Source: a virus
DNA length: 64,000 nt
Strand: one strand, 5' to 3'
IMG/VR virus record: IMGVR_UViG_3300045115_000211
Location: 1-64,000 of that record
Of this stretch, positions 2,685 to 55,706 are shown piece by piece. Position 1 is the first letter of the stretch, and the number at the start of each line of letters is the position of its first letter. The translations under genes and the position numbers were made by a program. The notes beneath the pieces were generated by a model. That model ran no database searches. It saw nothing but the letters and a program-made list of their open reading frames with translations, and was not told the origin of the DNA.

Positions 2685-3329
2685 ATGGCCGACAAGGCAC
2701 TTCTGATGGAGGCCGTGAGGCGCACCGACCTGGACCCGAAGGCAAGGCTGTCCATGGTCAGGGAGTCGGGATCCGTCCTCTACGAGTACGTCGGCGGATC
2801 GCACGCCTATGGCACGTCCCTTCCGACGAGCGACAGGGACGTCAGGGGCGTGTTCTGCCTTCCCGCCAGCGAGTACCTTTCGACGACCAAGCCGGCGGAC
2901 GGGATGCAGGACGACCGCAAGACGGACGGGAAGAAGAGGAACGACGACTTCTTCTTCACGCTCCGGAGGTTCTTCGAGCTCCTCAAGGGGGCCAACCCCA
3001 ACGTCATCGAGGCCCTCTGGATGCCCGAGGACTGCGTCGTCAGCGCCTCGCCCGAGATCAGGCTCGTGATCGCCAGGCGCGAGCTTTTCGTGTCGAAGGC
3101 GTGCCTCGGGTCGCACTTCGGCTACGCCAAGGACCAGATCGCCAAGGCGAGGGGCAAGAACAAAAAAGTGAACAATGCAGGTTTTTACGAACCAGGGATG
3201 AATAAGTTGGTGAGCCTATTGAAGGCTGGGGAGGTCACCAATGAATGGGTCAAGTCTAGGTTCGGAGAGGCAATCCTCAACGAAGCCTTGCGAAGAATGG
3301 AAGTGTCTGGCGTGCGACAAGGAGCTTGA
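2685..3329 (+). CDS. Nucleotidyltransferase, RlaP-like (N-terminal part of split gene)
   Basis: The first about 164 residues match the COG3541 predicted nucleotidyltransferases: GGSHAYGT near residue 38 and TSDRDVRG just after form the GS-x(n)-DxD-type catalytic core, followed by the EALW and FGYAKDQI helix typical of the family. After KNKKVNN (about 3176) codon use becomes AT-richer and the reading frame runs into inserted DNA, ending at 3329 with about 50 unrelated residues. The rest of the family sequence resumes at 4280-4999. The gene is therefore interrupted by the insert at about 3177-4285. Either the insert is removed from RNA, or two polypeptides are made and assemble, as reported for the split NrdA of phage Aeh1. 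Confidence 0.75.
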   Translation: MADKALLMEAVRRTDLDPKARLSMVRESGSVLYEYVGGSHAYGTSLPTSDRDVRGVFCLPASEYLSTTKPADGMQDDRKTDGKKRNDDFFFTLRRFFELLKGANPNVIEALWMPEDCVVSASPEIRLVIARRELFVSKACLGSHFGYAKDQIAKARGKNKKVNNAGFYEPGMNKLVSLLKAGEVTNEWVKSRFGEAILNEALRRMEVSGVRQGA

Positions 3330-4285
3330 GTCGTGCAGGTCACTAGGACAACACGTTCGGTCATATCACGGAACGAAGTTCTATTACGACAAGCACCTGA
3401 AGACTACCACGGAAGGACTTTGTCTGGTTTGCGGAGCATCGACCAGGTTTGTCAACCTGGTTCGTGGGTACAGGCTTCATTGTTCAGACCGTTGTTATCG
3501 AAAAGGGGTTTCTGGAGAGGGCAATCCTTTCTTCGGCAAAACGCATTCGGAGATCGTCAAGCAAGCCATTCTACAGAAACGCCATCCTCCTTCTGGGGTA
3601 AACCATCCAATGTTCGGCCGACGAGGAGCATCTCACCCAGCGTGGGGGCGCCGCCATACTGCGGAAGAACTTGTCAGAATGAGCCGTGCTCTGAAGGGTC
3701 GGAATCCGCCTGTTTTTACGGCAACCGTCTTGAGACGGATGTCGGAAACCCGCCGTGGTCGAAAGCATTCGGAGGAAACAAGACGGAAGATAGGGGAGTC
3801 TGGAAAAGGCAAGCATCATTTGTCGCCAGAGTTGCGCCAGAGAATATCGGCAAAGGTGGCACAGGCTTATGTGGACGGAAGGTTGAACCAGTTCCCATTC
3901 AATTCGGGATGGTATGTCTCCGAACGCTTCGGGAAGACCTTCTTCTACAGAAGTTCGTACGAGTTGAGGGTGGTGAAGATTATGGAGGCAGATGCGGCTG
4001 TGGTAGACCTGGACTACGAACCATTCAAGGTTCGCATTGTGGTCGATGGGGTTGTGCGTCATACGGTTCCAGACTTCCTGGTCAAGATGACCAACGGAGA
4101 GTCGTTCGTCATCGAAGTGAAGCCTCAGAAAATGACGCTTGTGCCAAAGGTTGCCGCCAAACTGGATGCCACCAGGATGTATTTCGAGGGTCAAGGAGTG
4201 GGATATGAAGTTTGGACAGAACGAGAAATCTCTACAAGAGATGGACTGCCATTTGGATGATCCGGACATCAGAAGGTTGATGCGC
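3177..4285 (+). mobile_element. HE-bearing insert splitting the nucleotidyltransferase gene
   Basis: AT-richer island of about 1.1 kb between the two halves of the nucleotidyltransferase. Joining codon AAT (ends 3176) to CCT (starts 4286) restores a family-like NNPRKLDFC junction. The inferred length is not a multiple of three, which argues against an intein. Only about 65 bases lie upstream of the HE gene and 25 downstream, little room for a group I core outside the ORF. The exact ends are approximate. Confidence 0.6.
3241..4260 (+). CDS. Homing endonuclease, zinc finger + NUMOD3 repeats + PD-(D/E)XK-like domain
   Basis: 339 residues. The N-terminus holds a C2H2-type finger (CLAC near residue 23, HVRSYH near residue 38) and a CxxC...CxxxC pair. 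The middle contains several NUMOD3-type repeats (NPFFGK, HPMFGR, HPAWGR, and the EETRRKIGES helix) that bind DNA in HNH and GIY-YIG homing enzymes. The C-terminus carries PDFLV...FVIEVKP, fitting a PD-(D/E)XK nuclease core (D near 277, E near 290, K near 292) instead of HNH or GIY-YIG. A GGGGAGG site precedes ATG 3241. AT-rich third positions contrast with the surrounding GC-rich genes, indicating recent transfer. It likely cuts an uninterrupted copy of the nucleotidyltransferase gene. Confidence 0.8.
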   Translation: MNGSSLGSERQSSTKPCEEWKCLACDKELESCRSLGQHVRSYHGTKFYYDKHLKTTTEGLCLVCGASTRFVNLVRGYRLHCSDRCYRKGVSGEGNPFFGKTHSEIVKQAILQKRHPPSGVNHPMFGRRGASHPAWGRRHTAEELVRMSRALKGRNPPVFTATVLRRMSETRRGRKHSEETRRKIGESGKGKHHLSPELRQRISAKVAQAYVDGRLNQFPFNSGWYVSERFGKTFFYRSSYELRVVKIMEADAAVVDLDYEPFKVRIVVDGVVRHTVPDFLVKMTNGESFVIEVKPQKMTLVPKVAAKLDATRMYFEGQGVGYEVWTEREISTRDGLPFG

Positions 4286-4999
4286 CCTCGGAAACTGGAC
4301 TTCTGCAGGATCATTCCCTGCGTGCCGGGGGCGAAGCCGTGGACTCACCCCGACGTCAAGTCGTCCAGGTTCCCGTTCAGGCCGATCCCCCTGTCCGAGA
4401 TGCCGTGGGTTGACCTCAAGGACTACCACGTGGCCGCCGTCGAGCACATGGCGAGTGCCTACAGGCTCTACTGCTACTACGGCGATCCGGCGTGCAAGGG
4501 CGTCTTCCGCGGCGACGACATGCTGGTCTGCGAGTCGATCCCCGTTGAGGACGAGCACGCCCGGTTCAGCGGCATCCTGCTCTACGACGAGCACGAGTAC
4601 GAGCGCGCCGTCAGGGACTGGAAGTCGTACTGGGACTGGATCGAGAACCGCAACCCCAACAGGTGGCTGGACCAGGAGCGTGGCAACCTGACCTTCGACC
4701 AGAAGAACATGACGCACTGCGTAAGGCTGCTCTGGTCCGGGCTGAACATCGTCAGGAACGGGGAGCCGATCGTCAGGTTCGACGGGGAGCAGCTCGGATA
4801 CCTGATGGCCTTGCGGACGGGCAGGATCACGGACTACGAAGCCGTCATGGCGAAGGTCGAGGGGCTCGTCGCCGAGATGGACGAGGCCGCCAAGACGTCC
4901 CCGATCCCGGAGTCCATCGACGAGGCGGCGGTCGAGGGTCTGCACGCGGAGGTGTCGCGGATGGCGTGGGACAGGCTGTTCGGGGAGAAGGTGGCATAG
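4280..4999 (+). CDS. Nucleotidyltransferase, RlaP-like (C-terminal part of split gene)
   Basis: 239 residues continuing the COG3541-like protein begun at 2685. The LDFCRII start, the AAVEHMASAYRLY segment, and FDQKNMTHCVRLLWSG...GEPIVRFDGEQ match the C-terminal helical region of this family, including the DxKnxxHxxRLL signature. ATG 4280 is preceded by AGAAGG, so independent translation is possible. If the insert is spliced from RNA, the ATG is instead internal intron/exon sequence. Codon use returns to the GC-rich style of the backbone after about 4290. Confidence 0.7.
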   Translation: MRPRKLDFCRIIPCVPGAKPWTHPDVKSSRFPFRPIPLSEMPWVDLKDYHVAAVEHMASAYRLYCYYGDPACKGVFRGDDMLVCESIPVEDEHARFSGILLYDEHEYERAVRDWKSYWDWIENRNPNRWLDQERGNLTFDQKNMTHCVRLLWSGLNIVRNGEPIVRFDGEQLGYLMALRTGRITDYEAVMAKVEGLVAEMDEAAKTSPIPESIDEAAVEGLHAEVSRMAWDRLFGEKVA

Positions 5000-5013
5000 G
5001 GTCGCTTGAACAC

Positions 5014-5469
5014 ATGATAACGTCATTCAGGGGCGAGCACTTCTTCCTGTCGAACTTCTTCGAGAGGCCGTTCGAATGGGACGGCATGACCTAGAGGTCT
5101 GCCGAGCACGCCTACCAGGCGTCAAAGGCCGACGGCTCCGACAACATAGGCAGGCTCGCCATCAAGATGGCGAGGACCCCAGCGATCGCCAAGCGCCTCG
5201 GGCGCAAGGTCAGGATGAGGGCGGACTGGGACGAGGCCAAGTACGACGTGATGAGGAGCGTCGTCAGGGCCAAGTTCTCCGACCCGGAGATGGCGAGGCT
5301 CCTGCTCGCCACCGGCGACGAGGAACTGGTGGAATTCAACATATGGGGCGATGTCGTTTGGGGTCAATGTGCTGACTCTACTGGGAAATGGGTTGGTCAG
5401 AACTGGCTGGGTAAGTTGCTAATGGAACTTCGCATCGACCTTCGGAGAAACGCCGGCCATGATCATTGA
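5014..5469 (+). CDS. NADAR-family N-glycosidase with in-frame amber codon
   Basis: Reading through one TAG gives a full NADAR (YbiA/DUF1768) domain: FRGEHFFLSNF at the start, SAEHAYQA just after the TAG, and NxWGDxxWG...NxLGKLLMELR at the end. NADAR enzymes cleave ADP-ribose N-glycosidic bonds, including from modified guanine. The TAG at 5092-5094 falls where relatives normally have tyrosine (the T-Y-x-S-x-EHAYQ context), a one-base change from TAT/TAC. Neighbouring genes end in TAG normally, so TAG is not globally recoded. Nonsense mutation, readthrough or sequence error are all possible. The 3' end overlaps the convergent GIY-YIG gene, and codon use turns AT-rich from about 5340. Confidence 0.75.
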
Positions 5470-6163
5470 AGAAATAGCGGTTGGTTTTGTATCCCTTTCG
5501 TTTTTCTGCGGCAATGACGTGAAGTAGAGGATCGAGAGTCCAGCCTTTGTGGTGGAGTTTTCTGCCCCTGACGACCTCACACATTCTCGCTGGCGACAGG
5601 TCGTGGTCTTTGCAGAATTTCCTCATGTTGTGGATTGTGGTTTTCCTTCCGTCTGGCGAATACAGCACGTAGGTTTTCGCACTAACTTCCGACGACCGCT
5701 GGTAGCAGTATGTCGTTCCTGGTTTTCCCCGATTTGCTTCTGACAGTTTCCGCTTGGCGTCTTCGGATAGTCTGATTCCCATATGAGACTTTGACAACTT
5801 TGCCCTTGTCTCTGGCGTGGCTGTTTTCCCAGTCATTTTTGCCGACAGTTTGGCCCTCGTTTCTGCTGATACTGACCCGGTCCCATTTCCGGCACGCAGA
5901 TTGTAACCGTTCGGAGAGAAGGTTCCGAGTTGAGTGGCGTAATGCAACTCCATTCGATCTAGTTCCTCTTGGGACGAGCAAGAACAAATGACCTCGATTT
6001 TGAAGTTGATGGCACCATACTTGGCGATGGCCATGGCGATCGGCATCCTTGTCCTGACGGTGCTTCGCCAACAGTGATGTTTGAAGCGTTGTTGTGTCGT
6101 TCTTGTAGTCTGACCAACATACCGCTTTCCGTTGACCAGGTTTGTGATCAGGTAGACGACCAC
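5378..6163 (-). CDS. GIY-YIG homing endonuclease with NUMOD repeats
   Basis: About 261 residues from a GTG start (6163) preceded by GGGAGG. N-terminal VVYLITNLVNGKRYVGQT is the GIY-YIG nuclease motif (here YLI...YVG), with the catalytic arginine in the QQRFKHH region and the Glu in the LDRMELHYA helix. It is followed by NGYNLRAG and several NUMOD3-type ETRAKLS-x-K repeats, then a NUMOD1-like helix-turn-helix (KTTIHNMRKFCKDHDLS). The gene overlaps a 50-residue zinc ribbon gene on the same strand by 16 bases. AT-rich codons mark it as mobile. It lies against the 3' end of the NADAR gene in convergent orientation. Confidence 0.9.
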   Translation of the reverse strand: MVVYLITNLVNGKRYVGQTTRTTQQRFKHHCWRSTVRTRMPIAMAIAKYGAINFKIEVICSCSSQEELDRMELHYATQLGTFSPNGYNLRAGNGTGSVSAETRAKLSAKMTGKTATPETRAKLSKSHMGIRLSEDAKRKLSEANRGKPGTTYCYQRSSEVSAKTYVLYSPDGRKTTIHNMRKFCKDHDLSPARMCEVVRGRKLHHKGWTLDPLLHVIAAEKRKGYKTNRYFFNDHGRRFSEGRCEVPLATYPASSDQPISQ

Positions 6164-6300
6164 TTTTTCGTCCTCCCGTTCTGGCGCTCGACATCCCAAT
6201 AGGCCGTCTTGCATCTGGGGCACAGCCTAATCTCGGATTTTCTAGGAACCCATTTCCATCCGCATCGTTTGCAGTCTAGGGTTGGCAGTGTGACTTTCAT
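6148..6300 (-). CDS. Small zinc-ribbon protein coupled to a homing endonuclease
   Basis: 50 residues starting MKVTLPTLDCKRCGWKW, with two CxxC knuckles (CKRC at about 10-13 and CPRC at about 29-32) spaced as in a zinc ribbon, then TAYWD. Its stop lies inside the start of the GIY-YIG gene, so the two are translationally coupled. A second copy of this layout (MKVKLQFLKCLKC..., 42 aa) precedes the HE at 32613-33568. The small ribbon probably binds DNA or assists the nuclease; its precise role is unknown. Confidence 0.75.
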   Translation of the reverse strand: MKVTLPTLDCKRCGWKWVPRKSEIRLCPRCKTAYWDVERQNGRTKKWSST

Positions 6301-6323
6301 TCTTACCTATTCTCTATACCATC

Positions 6324-6336
6324 GGTAAATCCCTGC
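6324..6336 (-). repeat. HE-cassette upstream motif GGTAAATCCCTGC (copy 1)
   Basis: A 13-base sequence identical to 33717-33729. In both places it lies exactly 23 bases upstream of the ATG of the small zinc-ribbon gene and borders the next gene's promoter on the other side. A related GGGAAATCC sits 24 bases upstream of the ribbon-helix-helix gene ending at 55861. It may be an operator or the outer end of the mobile cassette. Confidence 0.6.
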
Positions 6337-6344
6337 TTGCTGTG

Positions 6345-6350
6345 TATAAT
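6345..6350 (+). promoter_or_regulatory. -10 element TATAAT, leaderless-type promoter
   Basis: TATAAT followed by six bases and ATG 6357. No good -35 lies 17 bases upstream; instead the end of the adjacent HE cassette (CCCTGC) occupies that region, suggesting the cassette may have replaced or disturbed the original -35. Confidence 0.55.
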
Positions 6351-6356
6351 GCTGAC

Positions 6357-7097
6357 ATGAGCAGACGCATCAGGCAGCAAAACGGCCTAGACATCCCGCC
6401 GAAGATCAGCGTCGAGGTGTCGGCGGCGTGCACGAGGAGGTGCCCGTGGTGCCCCCAGCACGACCACACGAGGATGCAGGAGCTGATGCCGCTTGAGGTC
6501 ATCGAGAAGATAGCCAGGGAACTGGCGGCCGTCGGGTTCGACGGGACCTTCGGCCTGCACCTCTTCAACGAGCCGCTGGCCGACGCCAGGCTGGAGGACA
6601 TCGTCCGAAGGGTCAAGGCCATCCTCCCCAAGGCCGCCGTCTACTTCCACACGAACGGCGACCTCCTGACCGTCGAGCGAGTCAGGGGGCTGCTCGCCGC
6701 CGGCCTCGACCACATGACGGTCAACCACTATGACGGGCAGTCCCAGGAGCGGTTCTCCGCCCTGTGGGGGCAGCTTTCCGACGACGAGCGCGCCCGCGTG
6801 AGGGACAGGAAGTTCAGGCACCACCACATCTACAACCGCGCGGGCCTCGTGGCCACGAAGAGGCAGGTCCCCCTGCAGAGGCAGTGTCGGCGCATCCGCC
6901 AGATGTGCGTGAACTACCGGGGTGACGTCGTGCTGTGCTGCAACGACTTCCTCGGGCAGGTCAGCGTCGGCAACGTGAGGGACAAGGGCGTCGTCGAGCT
7001 CTTCAACGACCCCGTCCTCAAGCGCTACCGCGAGCTGCTGCAAGGAGGCAAGAGGGCGGGACTCAAGATGTGCGACAGGTGCGACCTCTTCGGCTGA
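6357..7097 (+). CDS. Radical SAM protein with C-terminal cysteine cluster
   Basis: 246 residues. CTRRCPWC near residues 24-31 is the CX3CX2C motif that binds the S-adenosylmethionine 4Fe-4S cluster, and it is followed by a strand-loop pattern consistent with a partial TIM barrel (GLHLFNEPL, YFHTNGDLL, DHMTVNHYDG). The C-terminus has a shortened SPASM-like set of cysteines (C near residues 174, 182, 191-192 and CDRC near 240). Such proteins modify peptides or small molecules; the substrate here is unknown and no precursor peptide is recognised next door. ATG 6357 fits the leaderless promoter. Confidence 0.85.
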   Translation: MSRRIRQQNGLDIPPKISVEVSAACTRRCPWCPQHDHTRMQELMPLEVIEKIARELAAVGFDGTFGLHLFNEPLADARLEDIVRRVKAILPKAAVYFHTNGDLLTVERVRGLLAAGLDHMTVNHYDGQSQERFSALWGQLSDDERARVRDRKFRHHHIYNRAGLVATKRQVPLQRQCRRIRQMCVNYRGDVVLCCNDFLGQVSVGNVRDKGVVELFNDPVLKRYRELLQGGKRAGLKMCDRCDLFG

Positions 7098-7106
7098 CGA
7101 GACGGG

Positions 7107-7135
7107 TTGACTCCTTCGCCTCCGTGTCGTACAAT
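7107..7135 (+). promoter_or_regulatory. Leaderless promoter TTGACT-N17-TACAAT
   Basis: TTGACT (7107-7112), exactly 17 bases, TACAAT (7130-7135), then six bases to ATG 7142. With a normal distance of about seven bases between the -10 and the transcription start, the transcript would begin at the A of the start codon. Confidence 0.75.
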
Positions 7136-7141
7136 CCGCCC

Positions 7142-7381
7142 ATGAGCTGGAAGAGGATACCGGCGGACAAGCAGGAGGTCGCGCTCGACGAGTGTCCGTT
7201 CTGCAGGACGGGGGAGACGTATTTCCTGTCCAGCGACAAGCCGCCGTTCCTCCAGATCGTCCACTATCCCCTGAAGGGGGTGGTGTGCCCGGCGCGGATG
7301 GAACAGGTCTGCGACAGCCAGGCCCAGGGGGCATCGTGGTGGAACGACAGGACGCCGAAGAAGGGGGTCGAGGAGACATGA
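7142..7381 (+). CDS. Lar-like zinc-ribbon protein, 79 aa
   Basis: CPFC near residues 18-21, a second cysteine pair further on (C near 49 and 57) and a terminal A-x-WWNDR segment match the layout of Lar-type restriction-alleviation zinc ribbons (CPFC...A...WN.R). Function by family: modulation of type I restriction in E. coli prophages, but most phage members are uncharacterised. It is the first gene of a coupled pair; its stop overlaps the RtcB start (ATGA). Confidence 0.6.
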   Translation: MSWKRIPADKQEVALDECPFCRTGETYFLSSDKPPFLQIVHYPLKGVVCPARMEQVCDSQAQGASWWNDRTPKKGVEET

Positions 7382-8796
7382 TAACGGGAAGGGACCTCAT
7401 CGACTGGGGCGTCAAGGGACCAGCCATCAAGACCGGGCTCCGCCTGCTCGTGCCGAACCCCAAGGACTTCGGCAGGGCGCAGATCGAGGCCAAGGTGAGG
7501 GACATCGTCGCCGACCCCTCGGCGTTCTTGGGCGACTGCGTCCCATGGGTGGCGTCGCTCGCCGCCGCAATGGCCTCCAAGGCCGAGGAGGACGCGAAGG
7601 CCACGCCCATTCGCATGTCCAAGAACCATTGTCCACTGACCATCTTCGGCGACTCGATGATCGAGCCCGGGGCCATCGGCCAGATACACGTCGCCGCCAA
7701 GCTCCCCATCTCCGTCAGGGCCGCTTTGATGCCAGACGCGCATCAGGGATACGGAATTCCGATTGGTGGGGTGCTGGCGACGGACAATGTGGTCATACCT
7801 TGGGCGGTCGGCGTCGACATATCGTGCCGCATGCAAATGACTATCTTCGACATCCCTGCAAAGGATGCGTCTGGAATGAAGGATCGCCTTGTCAACGTGC
7901 TTTCGTCCAACACGGTGTTCGGGGCTGGTCAAGACATTGATGTGAAGGTTGACTCAAGGGTTCTTGATGATGTTCGGTTCGACCTTCCATCCATCAGGGG
8001 CTTGCACCTGCGAGACTTGGCCACCAGACAGTGCGGAACTAGCGGCGGTGGGAACCACTTCGTATCATTCGGGTTCGTGTCGTTGCCAGAATTCGACGGG
8101 GAAAGGCTCGCCGTTTTGTCGCATTCTGGCTCTCGTGGGGTTGGGTACAAGATCGCAGATGTTTTCTCCAAGATGGCCGAGAAGGAATGCCCGCTTCCTG
8201 GGGATGCGAGGCGGCTCGCATGGCTTCGTATGGACTCGGATGCTGGGCGCGAATACTGGGACGCCATGATGTTGGCGGCAGATTTTGCCAAGGCGTGTCA
8301 TGATGTGATCCATGGCAGGATAACGAGGGCCATCAAGGCGGAAAGGGTCGGGTTCTTCGAGAACGTGCACAACCTCGCATGGAGAGAGCGACTTGTTGAT
8401 GGCAGGGATGTCATCGTTCATCGCAAGGGGGCTACCCCTGCCCATCTCGGAGTGTATGGGATCATCCCTGGGTCAATGACAACCCCCGTCTATGTTTGCA
8501 GGGGCAAGGGAAACGAGGCATACCTTTTCTCGTCATCTCATGGGGCTGGTCGCCTTATGTCGCGCAAGGCAGCCAAGGAGCAGTTCACAATGGCGCAGAT
8601 GAGGGGCGACTTGGATGTGGCGGGCGTCACCCTGATCGGCGGTTCGCTTGATGAGTGCTCGATGGCCTACAAGGATGTCACGAAGGTTATGGCATGCCAG
8701 AGCGAATCCGTTGATGTCATCGGGTCGTTCCGCTCGTTCATTGTTCGTATGGCGGGAGAGAGCGCGAAGCCGTGGGAGAAAGACATCGGAGAGTAG
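7378..8796 (+). CDS. rtcB: RNA-splicing ligase RtcB
   Basis: 472 residues with the RtcB signatures in order: PDAHQGYGIPIGG, GVDISCRM (Mn-binding Cys near residue 148), GTSGGGNHF (His), HSGSRGVG, HRKGATPA (the nucleotidylated His region) and SSHGAGR. RtcB joins 2',3'-cyclic phosphate or 3'-phosphate ends to 5'-OH RNA using GTP. In phages it can repair tRNAs cut by host anticodon nucleases (inference here). The start overlaps the preceding stop. From about 7730 onward codon use shifts from GC-rich to a visibly AT-richer style until the gene end, next to a GIY-YIG HE gene, suggesting the 3' part was replaced by co-conversion during homing. Confidence 0.95.
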   Translation: MITGRDLIDWGVKGPAIKTGLRLLVPNPKDFGRAQIEAKVRDIVADPSAFLGDCVPWVASLAAAMASKAEEDAKATPIRMSKNHCPLTIFGDSMIEPGAIGQIHVAAKLPISVRAALMPDAHQGYGIPIGGVLATDNVVIPWAVGVDISCRMQMTIFDIPAKDASGMKDRLVNVLSSNTVFGAGQDIDVKVDSRVLDDVRFDLPSIRGLHLRDLATRQCGTSGGGNHFVSFGFVSLPEFDGERLAVLSHSGSRGVGYKIADVFSKMAEKECPLPGDARRLAWLRMDSDAGREYWDAMMLAADFAKACHDVIHGRITRAIKAERVGFFENVHNLAWRERLVDGRDVIVHRKGATPAHLGVYGIIPGSMTTPVYVCRGKGNEAYLFSSSHGAGRLMSRKAAKEQFTMAQMRGDLDVAGVTLIGGSLDECSMAYKDVTKVMACQSESVDVIGSFRSFIVRMAGESAKPWEKDIGE

Positions 8797-8855
8797 GATT
8801 CGGATGCAGGATTGTTTGATTCGGTTGCGGAATGATGTGCGTAGGAGGCAACCCT

Positions 8856-9599
8856 ATGTACATCTACAAGACGACCAACCTGCTAAACGGGAAAATCTAT
8901 GTCGGACAGTCCAAGTTCAACCCAGAGGATAATCCGACCTATCTTGGGTCTGGCTGTCTTCTTATCAGGGCAGTACGATGCTATGGCTCACAGAACTTCC
9001 GGAAGGAGATTCTTGAACTGTGCGACAACAAGGACCAACTTTGCGAGCGAGAGCGGTACTGGATTGCGACCCTGAAGTCGAATGTCCGTGGAGTGGGGTA
9101 CAACATCTGCGAAGGAGGAACTTGGGGAGACACGTTCTCGTCCAACCCTCGCGCGGAGGAGTTGCGGACCAAGTTCAGGGAGCTAAACGGCGGGCAACGC
9201 AACCCGAACTACGGCAACAGGTGGACGACAGAACAGAGATTGGCGGCATCGCGACGATGCAAGCGTACCAACAGAATCATCGACAAGGAGACTGGCCTGA
9301 ACGTCGCCAAGTTGCCGCATGTGCGGAGAAAAATCTCCGACACGAAGAAGGGACTATTGAACCCGCAGGCGTTCTTGTGGAGGTTGATTTCCCCCATAAA
9401 CGAGGAGTTCCTGATAGAGGGCGGCGTTAAGGACGGGGTCAAAAGGTTCGGGGTCGACTACCAACAGTTCCGTCGTAAAGTCGGAGACAACATAAGGGTA
9501 AACAGAGCAGGGTGGATGTTGATTAGGGTTCCGGCTCAAGATGCCAGGTTCCATCAGAGGCTTTTGGAAGGCGAGGACTGGGACTCGTGTTGTGGTTGA
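8856..9599 (+). CDS. GIY-YIG homing endonuclease
   Basis: 247 residues. MYIYKTTNLLNGKIYVGQS contains the GIY-YIG pair (YIY, YVG); the catalytic Glu is probably in the CERERYWI helix, followed by GYNICEGG. One NUMOD3-like repeat (NPNYGN...EQRLAAS) and a C-terminal helix-turn-helix-like region (VKRFGVDYQQFRRKV) follow. ATG 8856 has a TAGGAGG site seven bases upstream; an earlier in-frame ATG at 8832 lacks one. It stands alone 60 bases after rtcB, so it is a free-standing HE, likely targeting rtcB. Confidence 0.85.
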   Translation: MYIYKTTNLLNGKIYVGQSKFNPEDNPTYLGSGCLLIRAVRCYGSQNFRKEILELCDNKDQLCERERYWIATLKSNVRGVGYNICEGGTWGDTFSSNPRAEELRTKFRELNGGQRNPNYGNRWTTEQRLAASRRCKRTNRIIDKETGLNVAKLPHVRRKISDTKKGLLNPQAFLWRLISPINEEFLIEGGVKDGVKRFGVDYQQFRRKVGDNIRVNRAGWMLIRVPAQDARFHQRLLEGEDWDSCCG

Positions 9600-9626
9600 T
9601 AATGTATGGCAGAAGGGGGACGGGGA

Positions 9627-9860
9627 ATGACAAGGCTGCAGAGGCTGTCGTTGGAGCGTGTCAAGAAACTCCTGGAAGGACTCCACCGAGGCTTCCCAGG
9701 CCCAATGTACTTGCCGACGGGCCTGGATGCCAAAGACCAGAAGCGCATCGAGGAGGAGCACCGCGAAAAGATCAGAAAGAACTGGGCGGAGGACTCGTCG
9801 GCGTGCACGGAGATGACGGGGATTCTGGACGCCATCCTTGCCGAGAAGGAGGAGGAATGA
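9627..9860 (+). CDS. Hypothetical protein, 77 aa
   Basis: Unrecognised, highly charged and probably all-helical (many Lys, Glu and Arg). ATG 9627 is preferred over ATG 9606 because a GGGGGACGGGGA ribosome site lies just upstream, and GATAAT at 9598-9603 would place the transcription start near 9610. Its stop overlaps the next start. Confidence 0.55.
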   Translation: MTRLQRLSLERVKKLLEGLHRGFPGPMYLPTGLDAKDQKRIEEEHREKIRKNWAEDSSACTEMTGILDAILAEKEEE

Positions 9861-10192
9861 GCAGGCCTCTCGACCAGATGACCGACGTGCAGGGCGCCAG
9901 GAGGATCCTCGTCCTGTGGGTCCCCCGGAAGTTCTCCCGCTGGAAGAGGTTCGGATGGGGTGCCTGCATGGGGCGCCTGTGGGTGCAGTTCACCCCAGGG
10001 GAGAAGACCGGCGGGGTCGACGTCAGGTCCCTGCCGCGCCTCGGGTCTGAATGCCAAAGGGCTCTCGCCTGCCTGCACATCGCCGTCGAAGAGGACGCGG
10101 CGTTCGACGTGAACCGGAAGGTCGGAGCATACCTTGACGAACTGGAGCGCTGGTGCGGAGCCGACCGCTCCGCGATGCGCGGGGGATCATGA
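9857..10192 (+). CDS. Hypothetical protein, 111 aa
   Basis: Unrecognised basic protein starting at the ATGA overlap with the preceding stop. Tryptophan- and arginine-rich N-terminal half (KFSRWKRFGWG), then a helical C-terminal half with a repeated acidic pattern. No metal site or membrane segment. It belongs to a run of small genes (9627-10824) between rtcB and the MBL-fold gene. Confidence 0.55.
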   Translation: MSRPLDQMTDVQGARRILVLWVPRKFSRWKRFGWGACMGRLWVQFTPGEKTGGVDVRSLPRLGSECQRALACLHIAVEEDAAFDVNRKVGAYLDELERWCGADRSAMRGGS

Positions 10193-10193
10193 C

Positions 10194-10550
10194 GTGAGCA
10201 GGCAGAAGAGGAGAGCCGAGGATCGGGGCTACGTGATGGCGTGGGACTCCGAAGTCCCGATGTACGGGGACGCCCCTCTGGCCCATGACTTCGTCGCCGT
10301 CATGGGGATCGTGTTCGTGGAACGCGCCAAGTTCGAGGCGATGGGAAGGTTCGCGTCCCACGATCCCGCCGTAGTGTCGTTCGAGAACGGGAGCGTCTCG
10401 GTCAAGGTCTTCAAGGCCGCCGGCAGCAAGGCGTGGCTCAAGAAGGCGCTTCCGGGCAAGGTCAAGGAGGCCCTCGAAGCGGCATACGCCGACAGGGCGG
10501 CCACGATGGCCGGTAAGATCAAGAAGGCACACCAGAAGGCGAAGCCGTAG
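10194..10550 (+). CDS. Hypothetical protein, 118 aa (GTG start)
   Basis: Unrecognised. GTG 10194 preceded by GGGGGAT was chosen; the ATG at 10189 stops after two codons in its frame. The start and end are strongly basic (RQKRRAEDR; KIKKAHQKAKP), flanking a hydrophobic alpha/beta middle. This could be a nucleic-acid-binding protein, but there is no recognisable motif. Confidence 0.5.
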   Translation: MSRQKRRAEDRGYVMAWDSEVPMYGDAPLAHDFVAVMGIVFVERAKFEAMGRFASHDPAVVSFENGSVSVKVFKAAGSKAWLKKALPGKVKEALEAAYADRAATMAGKIKKAHQKAKP

Positions 10551-10566
10551 AACAGGAGTACTAGGG

Positions 10567-10824
10567 ATGAGCTGGGAATACAACGTCGTCGACTGGCAGG
10601 ATCGGGCCCGCAAGTCGGAGCGCAAGGCGCGGCGCCTTGGCAAGGAACTCAAGGACATCAAGGGATCCCGCAAGCCCGTCGATATGACCCGTTGCGCCGC
10701 CGCCGTCGTGCGAGGCCTGAACGAGAAGCAGTGGGACAAGGCCGTCTGCATGGGCGCCACGGCCGACTCCTGGCTCAATGGCCTGTTCGAATACCTGCGC
10801 CAGCAGGGAGTGGAGCTCAAGTAG
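10567..10824 (+). CDS. Hypothetical protein, 85 aa
   Basis: Unrecognised. Preceded by AGGAGT. A basic, helical first half (ARKSERKARRLGKELKDIK) suggests a coiled coil or nucleic-acid contact. The second half resembles a small helical domain. The gene ends shortly before the promoter of the MBL-fold gene. Confidence 0.55.
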   Translation: MSWEYNVVDWQDRARKSERKARRLGKELKDIKGSRKPVDMTRCAAAVVRGLNEKQWDKAVCMGATADSWLNGLFEYLRQQGVELK

Positions 10825-10835
10825 CCATTCCTCGG

Positions 10836-10864
10836 TTGACTCTTCCGGCCGAACATGGCATCCT
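10836..10864 (+). promoter_or_regulatory. Promoter TTGACT-N17-CATCCT
   Basis: TTGACT (10836-10841), a 17-base spacer and CATCCT (10859-10864), leaving a leader of about 25 bases with a GAGGAGG ribosome site before ATG 10897. Confidence 0.6.
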
Positions 10865-10896
10865 TCTCGCCGTGAGCAACGAGGAGGAAACACATC

Positions 10897-11799
10897 ATGT
10901 CCGTCCGTCGCGACATCATCGACAGCTTCAGGGGTTTCTCCATGGCGATGTGCTCGACGTGGCTCTGGCACAGGCCTAGCCGCTCGATGTTCGACGCCGG
11001 GGAGGGCATCAGCCCCCACATGAGGAACCACGTCTTCGCCATCGAGAACGTGTTCCTCACCCACGGGCACCACGACCACCTCGGAGGGGTCGCCGGGCTC
11101 GCCCTCGCAAGGGGCGCCGCCCGCGGCGACAAGGACAAGCCGTTCGTGATCTTCCATCCCGGCGGGTGGGGCGAGATCGAGGCGCTCAAGAGGTACATCG
11201 ATGCCGTCTGCGACAACAGCCGCGTGATCGCCTGGAAGGAGATCGTCCCGGGCGACTCCGTGACCATGTCCGACGACGGCAAGACGTCCGTCAGGGCGTT
11301 CGAGGTCAGGCATGCCAGCAGGCTCTGCCTCGGCTACGCGATGGTCGAGAAGAGGGTCAGGCTCCGCAAGGAGTTCTCTGGCCTTCCCGGCAAGGAGATC
11401 GCCGCCATCGCCGCCGAGAGGGGCAGGGACGCGATCAACGAGCCGTACGAGAAGATCGTCTTCGCGTACTCCGGGGACTGCTCCGGGGTCGACCCCGACT
11501 CCGTCCCCGGCGCCGACGTGCTCTTCCACGAGGGCACGTTCGTCGAGAAGGGCGAGCTCGTCGGGGATGGCGAGGAGACCGCCATGCGCGCCGGGGGCGG
11601 CCATTCGACCGTCCGCGGGGCCGTCGGGGTCGCCGCCAAGGCCGGGGTCGGAGTCCTCGTGCTCGTGCACCTCTCCATGAGGTATTCGGTCGAGTCCGCC
11701 GTGGCCGAGGCGCGCGCGACGGCCGGCGAGTTCGGGTTCGCCGGCGGGATCAGTCTGCTCCACGGCAGCCGAATGATCGAGGTGGGGGCGGCTTCATGA
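10897..11799 (+). CDS. Metallo-beta-lactamase-fold hydrolase, RNase Z-like
   Basis: 300 residues. THGHHDHLGG near residue 52 is the HxHxDH zinc-binding motif; FDAGEG upstream, YSGDCSG near residue 190, FHEGTF near 210 and GHSTVRGA near 232 follow the RNase Z/ElaC order, with a final His near 254. RNase Z trims tRNA 3' ends; other MBL-fold phosphodiesterases share the motifs. A role in processing the phage tRNAs is plausible but unproven, and the tRNAs here encode CCA. The gene overlaps the metallophosphoesterase start (ATGA). Confidence 0.8.
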   Translation: MSVRRDIIDSFRGFSMAMCSTWLWHRPSRSMFDAGEGISPHMRNHVFAIENVFLTHGHHDHLGGVAGLALARGAARGDKDKPFVIFHPGGWGEIEALKRYIDAVCDNSRVIAWKEIVPGDSVTMSDDGKTSVRAFEVRHASRLCLGYAMVEKRVRLRKEFSGLPGKEIAAIAAERGRDAINEPYEKIVFAYSGDCSGVDPDSVPGADVLFHEGTFVEKGELVGDGEETAMRAGGGHSTVRGAVGVAAKAGVGVLVLVHLSMRYSVESAVAEARATAGEFGFAGGISLLHGSRMIEVGAAS

Positions 11800-54706: not shown

Positions 54707-55023
54707 GGATCCAGGACAAGGCGGAGTACCGCCGCCTGCTCGACGAGATCGGAGCCGACTACTGCCCCGAGGGGAGGTACTGCATCTTCAAGGAGTTCCT
54801 CGTGGCGTCGCACCCCTCGCGTCGCCTGCTCGTCCAACTCAAGTGCTGCGACAAGGCAAAGTTCGCGTGGAGCAAGGACGGCGGCAAGGACATCGGATGG
54901 GAGGAGACGCTAAAACGCTGGGTAGATTCGGGATTGGCAAGGCGCTTTGCGGAGGTCTACGCGGACTCCCTTTCTCCAAGGGAAGTGTTCAGAATGACAT
55001 TCGAACAGCCGCAAGTCTCTTGA
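54694..55023 (+). CDS. Hypothetical protein, 109 aa
   Basis: Unrecognised. A CDMR start and internal CCDKA do not make an obvious metal site. The last about 35 codons (from 54910) turn AT-rich and overlap the convergent GIY-YIG gene by 67 bases, implying that the 3' end was altered when the HE arrived. Confidence 0.5.
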   Translation: MCDMRIQDKAEYRRLLDEIGADYCPEGRYCIFKEFLVASHPSRRLLVQLKCCDKAKFAWSKDGGKDIGWEETLKRWVDSGLARRFAEVYADSLSPREVFRMTFEQPQVS

Positions 55024-55706
55024 TCGTCGGCACCTTCACGATGCTTGGCTCCATTCGTGTTCCCCATCAGAGCTTTTCTGATTTTGTCCCTAGTTTCTTG
55101 GGATACTGGGTGTCCCATTCTTGCAGCACTCATCTTGGCTCGTGTGACGTCAGATATGATCTTGCCAGTTTCAGATTGACTGATCTTCAGACGCACCGAT
55201 GCTGGGATATGCCGACCCCAGTTGGGGCTTTTCGACCCCCTGAAAGCCTTGGATATTTTCGCTTTAGTCGCTTCCGACTGTGGGTGTCCTGGTTTCCCCA
55301 GTTTCGCAACTCGCATCAGCATCTTTGTATGCTCTGAATGAGGTCCGCGTTTCTTCCCAAGTTTGGCAATGCTCATCCTCCTGCGACTTTCTTCGCTATG
55401 CCTTGGCGCATGACCGCCGCCCATCATATTGTATCCATGGGCCCTGTCGGTAGTCCTATATGCGGCAATCAGGCGAGATTCTGCCTCGTCCAAGTTTTCA
55501 GGAGCGCAGTGCTCCAAGACTTCGAAAACAAAAGCATCCTCTCCGTGCTTGTTCCATGCGGCCTGAAGGTGGCGATTTGGATGGAATCCACGACGCAGTT
55601 GTCCCCTGTGCCCATTCCATCTGTTCCTGATGTCCATGGATTGACCGATGTTCCGCTTCCCGTTGACGGTGTTCGTGATGCTGTATATGCCGCTCATCTT
55701 GCTCAC
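54957..55706 (-). CDS. GIY-YIG homing endonuclease with NUMOD3 repeats
   Basis: 249 residues from GTG 55706, which overlaps the stop of the upstream ribbon-helix-helix gene. SGIYSITNTVNGKRNIGQS is the GIY-YIG motif with NIG in place of YVG; RNRWNGHR holds the catalytic Arg, and LDEAESRLIAAY the Glu. NGYNMMGGG and four NUMOD3 repeats (EESRRRMSIAKLGK, EHTKMLMRVAKLGK, EATKAKISKAFRGS, DVTRAKMSAARMGH) follow. AT-rich island. The unusual N in the second tripeptide may weaken catalysis. Confidence 0.9.
   Translation of the reverse strand: MSKMSGIYSITNTVNGKRNIGQSMDIRNRWNGHRGQLRRGFHPNRHLQAAWNKHGEDAFVFEVLEHCAPENLDEAESRLIAAYRTTDRAHGYNMMGGGHAPRHSEESRRRMSIAKLGKKRGPHSEHTKMLMRVAKLGKPGHPQSEATKAKISKAFRGSKSPNWGRHIPASVRLKISQSETGKIISDVTRAKMSAARMGHPVSQETRDKIRKALMGNTNGAKHREGADDQETCGCSNVILNTSLGERESA

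Follow-up and report, generated by a model that had tools for sequence, protein, structure and literature searches.

An rlaP gene interrupted by an endonuclease ORF

The window analyzed here covers the first 64 kb of a virus record of 113,194 bp from an uncultured phage. It contains a gene for an RlaP-family nucleotidyltransferase (rlaP), which is interrupted by a single homing endonuclease ORF (3241-4260). The gene and its insert are laid out as follows:

2685..3191, + strand: RlaP N-half, 169 native residues, with a complete nucleotidyltransferase catalytic core (GS, SDxD and the third Asp)
3192..4282, + strand: insert, 1091 bp (remainder 2 modulo 3), one base ambiguous
3241..4260, + strand: homing endonuclease ORF, 339 aa, with three matches to PF07460 (E=6e-17) and one to PF08722 (E=3.5e-10)
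4283..4999, + strand: RlaP C-half, 238 native residues, matching phrog_388 positions 238-336 (E=1e-8)

RlaP (PF10127) is an RNA ligase-associated nucleotidyltransferase of the Pol-beta type (PMC7824862). The N-half matches PF10127 with E=3.6e-17 and 63.3 bits (curated cut-off 23) and covers positions 37-168 of phrog_388 with E=6e-28. All of the Pol-beta catalytic residues lie in this half (G38 and S39; S49, D50 and D52; D87), which keeps 24 of the 25 columns that at least 85% of relatives conserve. The C-half is 60% identical to the intact relative L015/L024; eight of its nine residues that are invariant among 32 relatives are kept, and the ninth is changed from Ile to Leu. Joined in silico, the two halves give a single continuous match to phrog_388 (positions 37-336, E=1.2e-38, 134 bits). 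The original prediction, made from the sequence before any database search, had described an RlaP-like gene with its family motifs divided between two flanks by an endonuclease insert. The PF10127 and phrog_388 matches agree on the family, the halves match successive stretches of phrog_388, and the endonuclease ORF lies between them, so that this description holds.

The window gene shares with the RlaP family both the catalytic and family motifs and the nearby gene for the RNA ligase RtcB, which is found here some 2.2 kb further along, at 7192-8796 (PF01139, E=5e-76). It differs from the relatives examined, which are all one chain, in being divided over two ORFs. A search of the whole record for a second RlaP found none.

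Intact relatives and the boundaries of the insert

For comparison, we kept the best 80 of 354 RlaP relatives in IMG/VR, and all 80 are single uninterrupted ORFs that align in one segment. Likewise, the phage records listed as matching a full-length RlaP relative (60 of 210) align to it in one piece, 60 out of 60; no other insert-bearing rlaP gene was seen among these 80 viral loci and 60 phage records. Because the relatives kept and the records listed are uninterrupted, the interruption is neither a family trait nor chance and, as judged from these alignments, is special to this virus among the relatives examined. A DNA-level search of phage records gave no match.

Several intact relatives from IMG/VR (L015/L024, L016/L025 and L027) allowed a closer comparison. 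Out of 50 highly conserved columns, the window protein retains 43, L024 39 and L025 40, and a relative-rate comparison with the intact sister L024 showed that the window halves are not accelerated. Invariant family residues are found in both halves, nine in the N-half and nine in the C-half, suggesting that RlaP activity should need both.

In the relatives, the linker from KKxN to LDFC has a fixed length, as seen in L024 (NHPEPVE/RPKKLDFC, KSNHPEPVERPKKLDFC), L025 (NHPEMFK/KPIKEDFC, MINHPEMFKKPIKEDFC) and L027 (NNPKPVE/RPVKEDYC, KVNNPKPVERPVKEDYC). Alignment to these three gives 3191/4283 as the best join, reading KVNNAGFYE/RPRKLDFC, and as only this join matches the relatives' linker length, the insert is placed at about 3192-4282, with an edge range of 3177-3192 on the left and 4282-4283 on the right. 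The join proposed originally, NN/PRKLDFC, leaves the linker about five to six residues too short with respect to the relatives, and the insert size given with it, about 1109 bases, is corrected to 1091 bp by the same alignment. At the left junction, AGFYE is unlike PKPVE and is written mostly in A- or T-ending codons, and part of it may thus have entered together with the insert, through replacement or co-conversion. If AGFYE is insert-derived, the left edge would lie at about 3177 and some 15 bp of rlaP would have been replaced.

In the structure predicted for an intact relative (mean pLDDT 88), the split falls in a loop between helices (residues 165-173); a search among solved structures gave no close match, the best Foldseek E being 0.007. 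Another intact relative, L026 (1122-2384), carries a natural in-frame insertion of about 50-60 residues in the very linker that is split in the window, suggesting that the site tolerates change.

On the left side, the RlaP-N frame runs on into the insert (3192..3329, + strand), which adds a foreign tail of 45 residues before a TGA at 3327-3329 (ORF 2685-3329). The tail has no Pfam match and no relative in viral or genome contigs. Part of it, MNKLVSLLKAGEVTNEWVKSRFGEAILNEALRRME (3198-3302, + strand, in the RlaP-N frame), looks protein-like and, in a different frame, overlaps the beginning of the endonuclease ORF; it may be a former N-terminal endonuclease module cut off by a frameshift. We considered this origin (frame 3, from 3198, possibly through loss of one TGGAA repeat) and set it aside, treating MNKLVSLLKAGEVTNEWVKSRFGEAILNEALRRME as the RlaP-N tail, since no relative of it was found in phage, viral or genome contigs and the finger is where most zinc-finger relatives begin. 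A likeness between MNKLVSLLKAGEVTNEWVKSRFGEAILNEALRRME and the linker insertion of L026 was put down to chance, as 1481 of 5000 shuffles score as high.

A predicted homing endonuclease with a TnsA-type nuclease domain

The ORF in the insert encodes, in order, a C2H2-like zinc finger (CxxC...HxxxxH), a second Cys cluster, three NUMOD3 motifs and a PD-(D/E)XK domain of the TnsA type. The nuclease residues (E, PD and ExK) and those of the zinc finger are intact and align with relatives. By AlphaFold, the nuclease domain matches TnsA 1t0f (Foldseek E=2e-7), and outside the nuclease and finger domains the model is of low confidence (mean pLDDT 62). From its nuclease active site and NUMOD3 modules, the ORF is predicted to be a homing endonuclease.

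Relatives of this protein were found in Vibrio phage pv27 and in L107-L112; in pv27, L107, L108 and L112 the ORF is free-standing and intergenic. The pv27 protein (OR413349, CDS0268) has the same order of finger and nuclease, with 24.5% identity over 93% of the length; it lies between genes and has a shorter NUMOD3 stretch, whereas the window endonuclease splits a gene. Within the record itself, at least four other NUMOD3 endonucleases are apparently intergenic. More broadly, we observed at least five further homing endonuclease genes in the record (GIY-YIG or TnsA-like, most with NUMOD3), apparently all intergenic:

5378-6223 of the window, - strand: homing endonuclease gene
8832-9599 of the window, + strand: homing endonuclease gene
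54957-55706 of the window, - strand: homing endonuclease gene
about 64322-65227 of the record: homing endonuclease gene
about 108124-108927 of the record: homing endonuclease gene

A further match of the nuclease domain is to the head-closure family phrog_218 (E=6e-13). In L108 (2992-4339) and in Stenotrophomonas phage Marzo (L018, about 2985-3989), T4 gp4-like head-completion genes are directly preceded by ORFs resembling zinc-finger endonucleases. This match and these neighborhoods hint at a shared origin.

The GC3 of the endonuclease ORF is 0.55 as compared to 0.90-0.94 in the flanking rlaP halves, suggesting that the insert is probably a fairly recent arrival.

Start signals of the downstream ORFs

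Both ORFs downstream of RlaP-N have a candidate ribosome binding site:

3228..3243, + strand: Shine-Dalgarno-like GGGGAGG ahead of the ATG (3241) that starts the endonuclease ORF
4192..4207, + strand: Shine-Dalgarno-like AAGGAG and ATG 4205, a candidate RlaP-C start inside the endonuclease gene, with 26 foreign residues first

A second in-frame ATG (4280-4282) directly precedes the first native RlaP-C codon, and 3 nt before this ATG there is a weak AGAAGG. The ORFs overlap, by 89 nt between RlaP-N and the endonuclease and by 56 nt between the endonuclease and RlaP-C. In the window, a 6-mer Shine-Dalgarno match precedes 2.7% of ATGs by chance and a 4-mer match 15%; given the 6-mer rate, these start signals support separate translation rather than prove it.

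We looked at the insert for a hairpin that might sequester a ribosome binding site and found none better than chance. A 7-bp inverted repeat, TTGGTGA/TCACCAA, around the endonuclease Shine-Dalgarno was considered as a mobE-like hairpin and rejected: 1.6 such repeats are expected per shuffled insert, and the fold is unexceptional.

A split enzyme or a disrupted gene

Based on these results, our favored reading, held with moderate confidence, is that an endonuclease has split rlaP into two cistrons with neither intron nor intein, the halves most likely reassembling. The course that we infer comprises homing, co-transcription, separate translation and reassembly. A promoterless, free-standing homing endonuclease gene would have entered rlaP at a loop-coding stretch, and a single mRNA would carry, in this order, RlaP-N with its 45-residue insert-encoded tail, the endonuclease and RlaP-C. 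The endonuclease would be made from its own Shine-Dalgarno and the ATG at 3241, and RlaP-C from its own Shine-Dalgarno and the ATG at 4205. By cutting the uninterrupted rlaP of co-infecting relatives near the insertion site, the endonuclease would let repair from the interrupted copy spread the insert. Across the loop, RlaP-N and RlaP-C would most likely bind each other and form a functional nucleotidyltransferase of two chains. Counting for a split enzyme are the intact nuclease, the conserved halves, a Shine-Dalgarno and ATG for each downstream cistron, and an endonuclease type that is free-standing elsewhere; the foreign GC3, the chance rate of Shine-Dalgarno matches and a TAG in the adjoining NADAR gene count against it.

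The serious rival, which we hold to be possible though the less probable of the two, is that of simple disruption, in which a recent endonuclease insertion has turned rlaP into a pseudogene still free of decay, RlaP being dispensable in the phage. RNA-repair genes are accessory in phages, the foreign composition of the insert is consistent with a recent arrival, and the adjoining NADAR gene has an in-frame stop. Under disruption, RlaP function would be lost, since the record has no second RlaP. Arguing against it, neither half is decayed, both downstream ORFs have good start signals, the split is located in a loop, and there are precedents of working split enzymes. The first of these points has to be read with the age of the insert in mind: as the insert looks recent, undecayed halves say little on function, and a new pseudogene would look alike.

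The NADAR gene (5014-5466, + strand) lies directly downstream and is otherwise intact in its coding, with an in-frame TAG at codon 27 (about 5092) that is also present in the second contig of the same virus; it is either a point-mutated pseudogene or read through. A TAG inside this gene suggests that genes of the region may be eroding. This stop had raised the question of TAG recoding, which we rejected, as TAG terminates 25 of 68 likely genes, indicating that it is a stop here.

Intron, assembly artefact and intein

The original prediction had left the choice between a compact intron and a split gene that makes two polypeptides. The latter stands as the best reading. A compact or unrecognized self-splicing intron, consisting mostly of the endonuclease ORF and restoring one RlaP chain, would fit the position of the endonuclease, which sits where the flanks rejoin to a near-seamless RlaP. 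The search for group I and group II cores that had been suggested along with it was run against Rfam and found no family in 2900-4600, whether at the gathering score or with E values up to 5. The endonuclease ORF leaves just 71 bp of the insert uncovered, 49 bp on its left and 22 bp on its right. Group I introns follow a 5' flank that ends in U, and group II introns begin with GUGYG. The boundary bases here are GAA/CCAGGG ... GATG/CGC, the 5' flank ending in GAA and the insert starting with CCAGGG, which fits neither group. In addition, fold energies near both ends are within about 1.5 standard deviations of shuffles. The lack of an Rfam match, the 49 and 22 bp and the missing boundary bases together make an intron very unlikely.

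Even less credit is due to an assembly artefact in which two genomes were joined at the endonuclease: the left junction is known from one contig only and the second contig (L014) stops inside the endonuclease gene at window 3929, but that contig is 100% identical to window 3929-10996, so that both contigs agree on the right junction and on the 7 kb that follow it, the two halves share the genome's GC3 and are neighbors in one family profile, and the record has no second RlaP copy. Finally, an intein or in-frame fusion, to which the 45-residue continuation of the RlaP-N ORF into the insert might point, is excluded by frame and stop codon, in keeping with the earlier argument that an out-of-frame insert is unlikely to be an intein: 1091 bp leaves a remainder of 2 modulo 3, neither half shares its reading frame with the endonuclease, which terminates at a stop codon (4258-4260), Cys, Ser and Thr are absent at the junction, and splicing motifs were not seen.

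Relation to known split genes

Interrupted relative to related phages, with neither intron nor intein, the window rlaP is of the endonuclease-split kind known from nrdA and mobE of Aeromonas phage Aeh1. In both, a free-standing endonuclease ORF lies in a phage enzyme gene that is left in two fragments. The host gene is here rlaP, and the nuclease has a TnsA-type PD-(D/E)XK fold with a zinc finger and NUMOD3, whereas mobE is HNH; a hairpin that would sequester a ribosome binding site, as with mobE, was not found here at better than chance. The Aeh1 NrdA split by mobE is fully functional, with reassembly proven (PMC2988022), whereas for the window halves reassembly is proposed. T4 gene 60, split by mobA, and gene 43 of Aeromonas phage 25, associated with seg43 (PMC2988022), are alike in that one enzyme is split into two polypeptides in association with an endonuclease, and differ in host genes and nuclease families.

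A literature search of partial coverage found no report in which rlaP is the split host or the splitting endonuclease has a TnsA fold. Endonuclease-split genes are already known, and what appears new here, with none earlier found, is the rlaP host together with the TnsA-fold nuclease. To our knowledge, few cases of homing endonucleases splitting enzyme genes without an intron have been described, and the split rlaP extends them to another host gene and another nuclease fold. More tentatively, this naturally split RlaP may be a two-chain RNA-repair enzyme in which the insert-encoded tails (45 residues on the N-half, 26 on the C-half) take part in assembly, and TnsA-fold endonucleases, not only those of the HNH and GIY-YIG families, may split phage genes without an intron.

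In conclusion, an rlaP split by its endonuclease would offer a natural case in which to study how a phage enzyme withstands fission, and it marks a cut-tolerant place in the RlaP chain, which would help to work out its two-part architecture.
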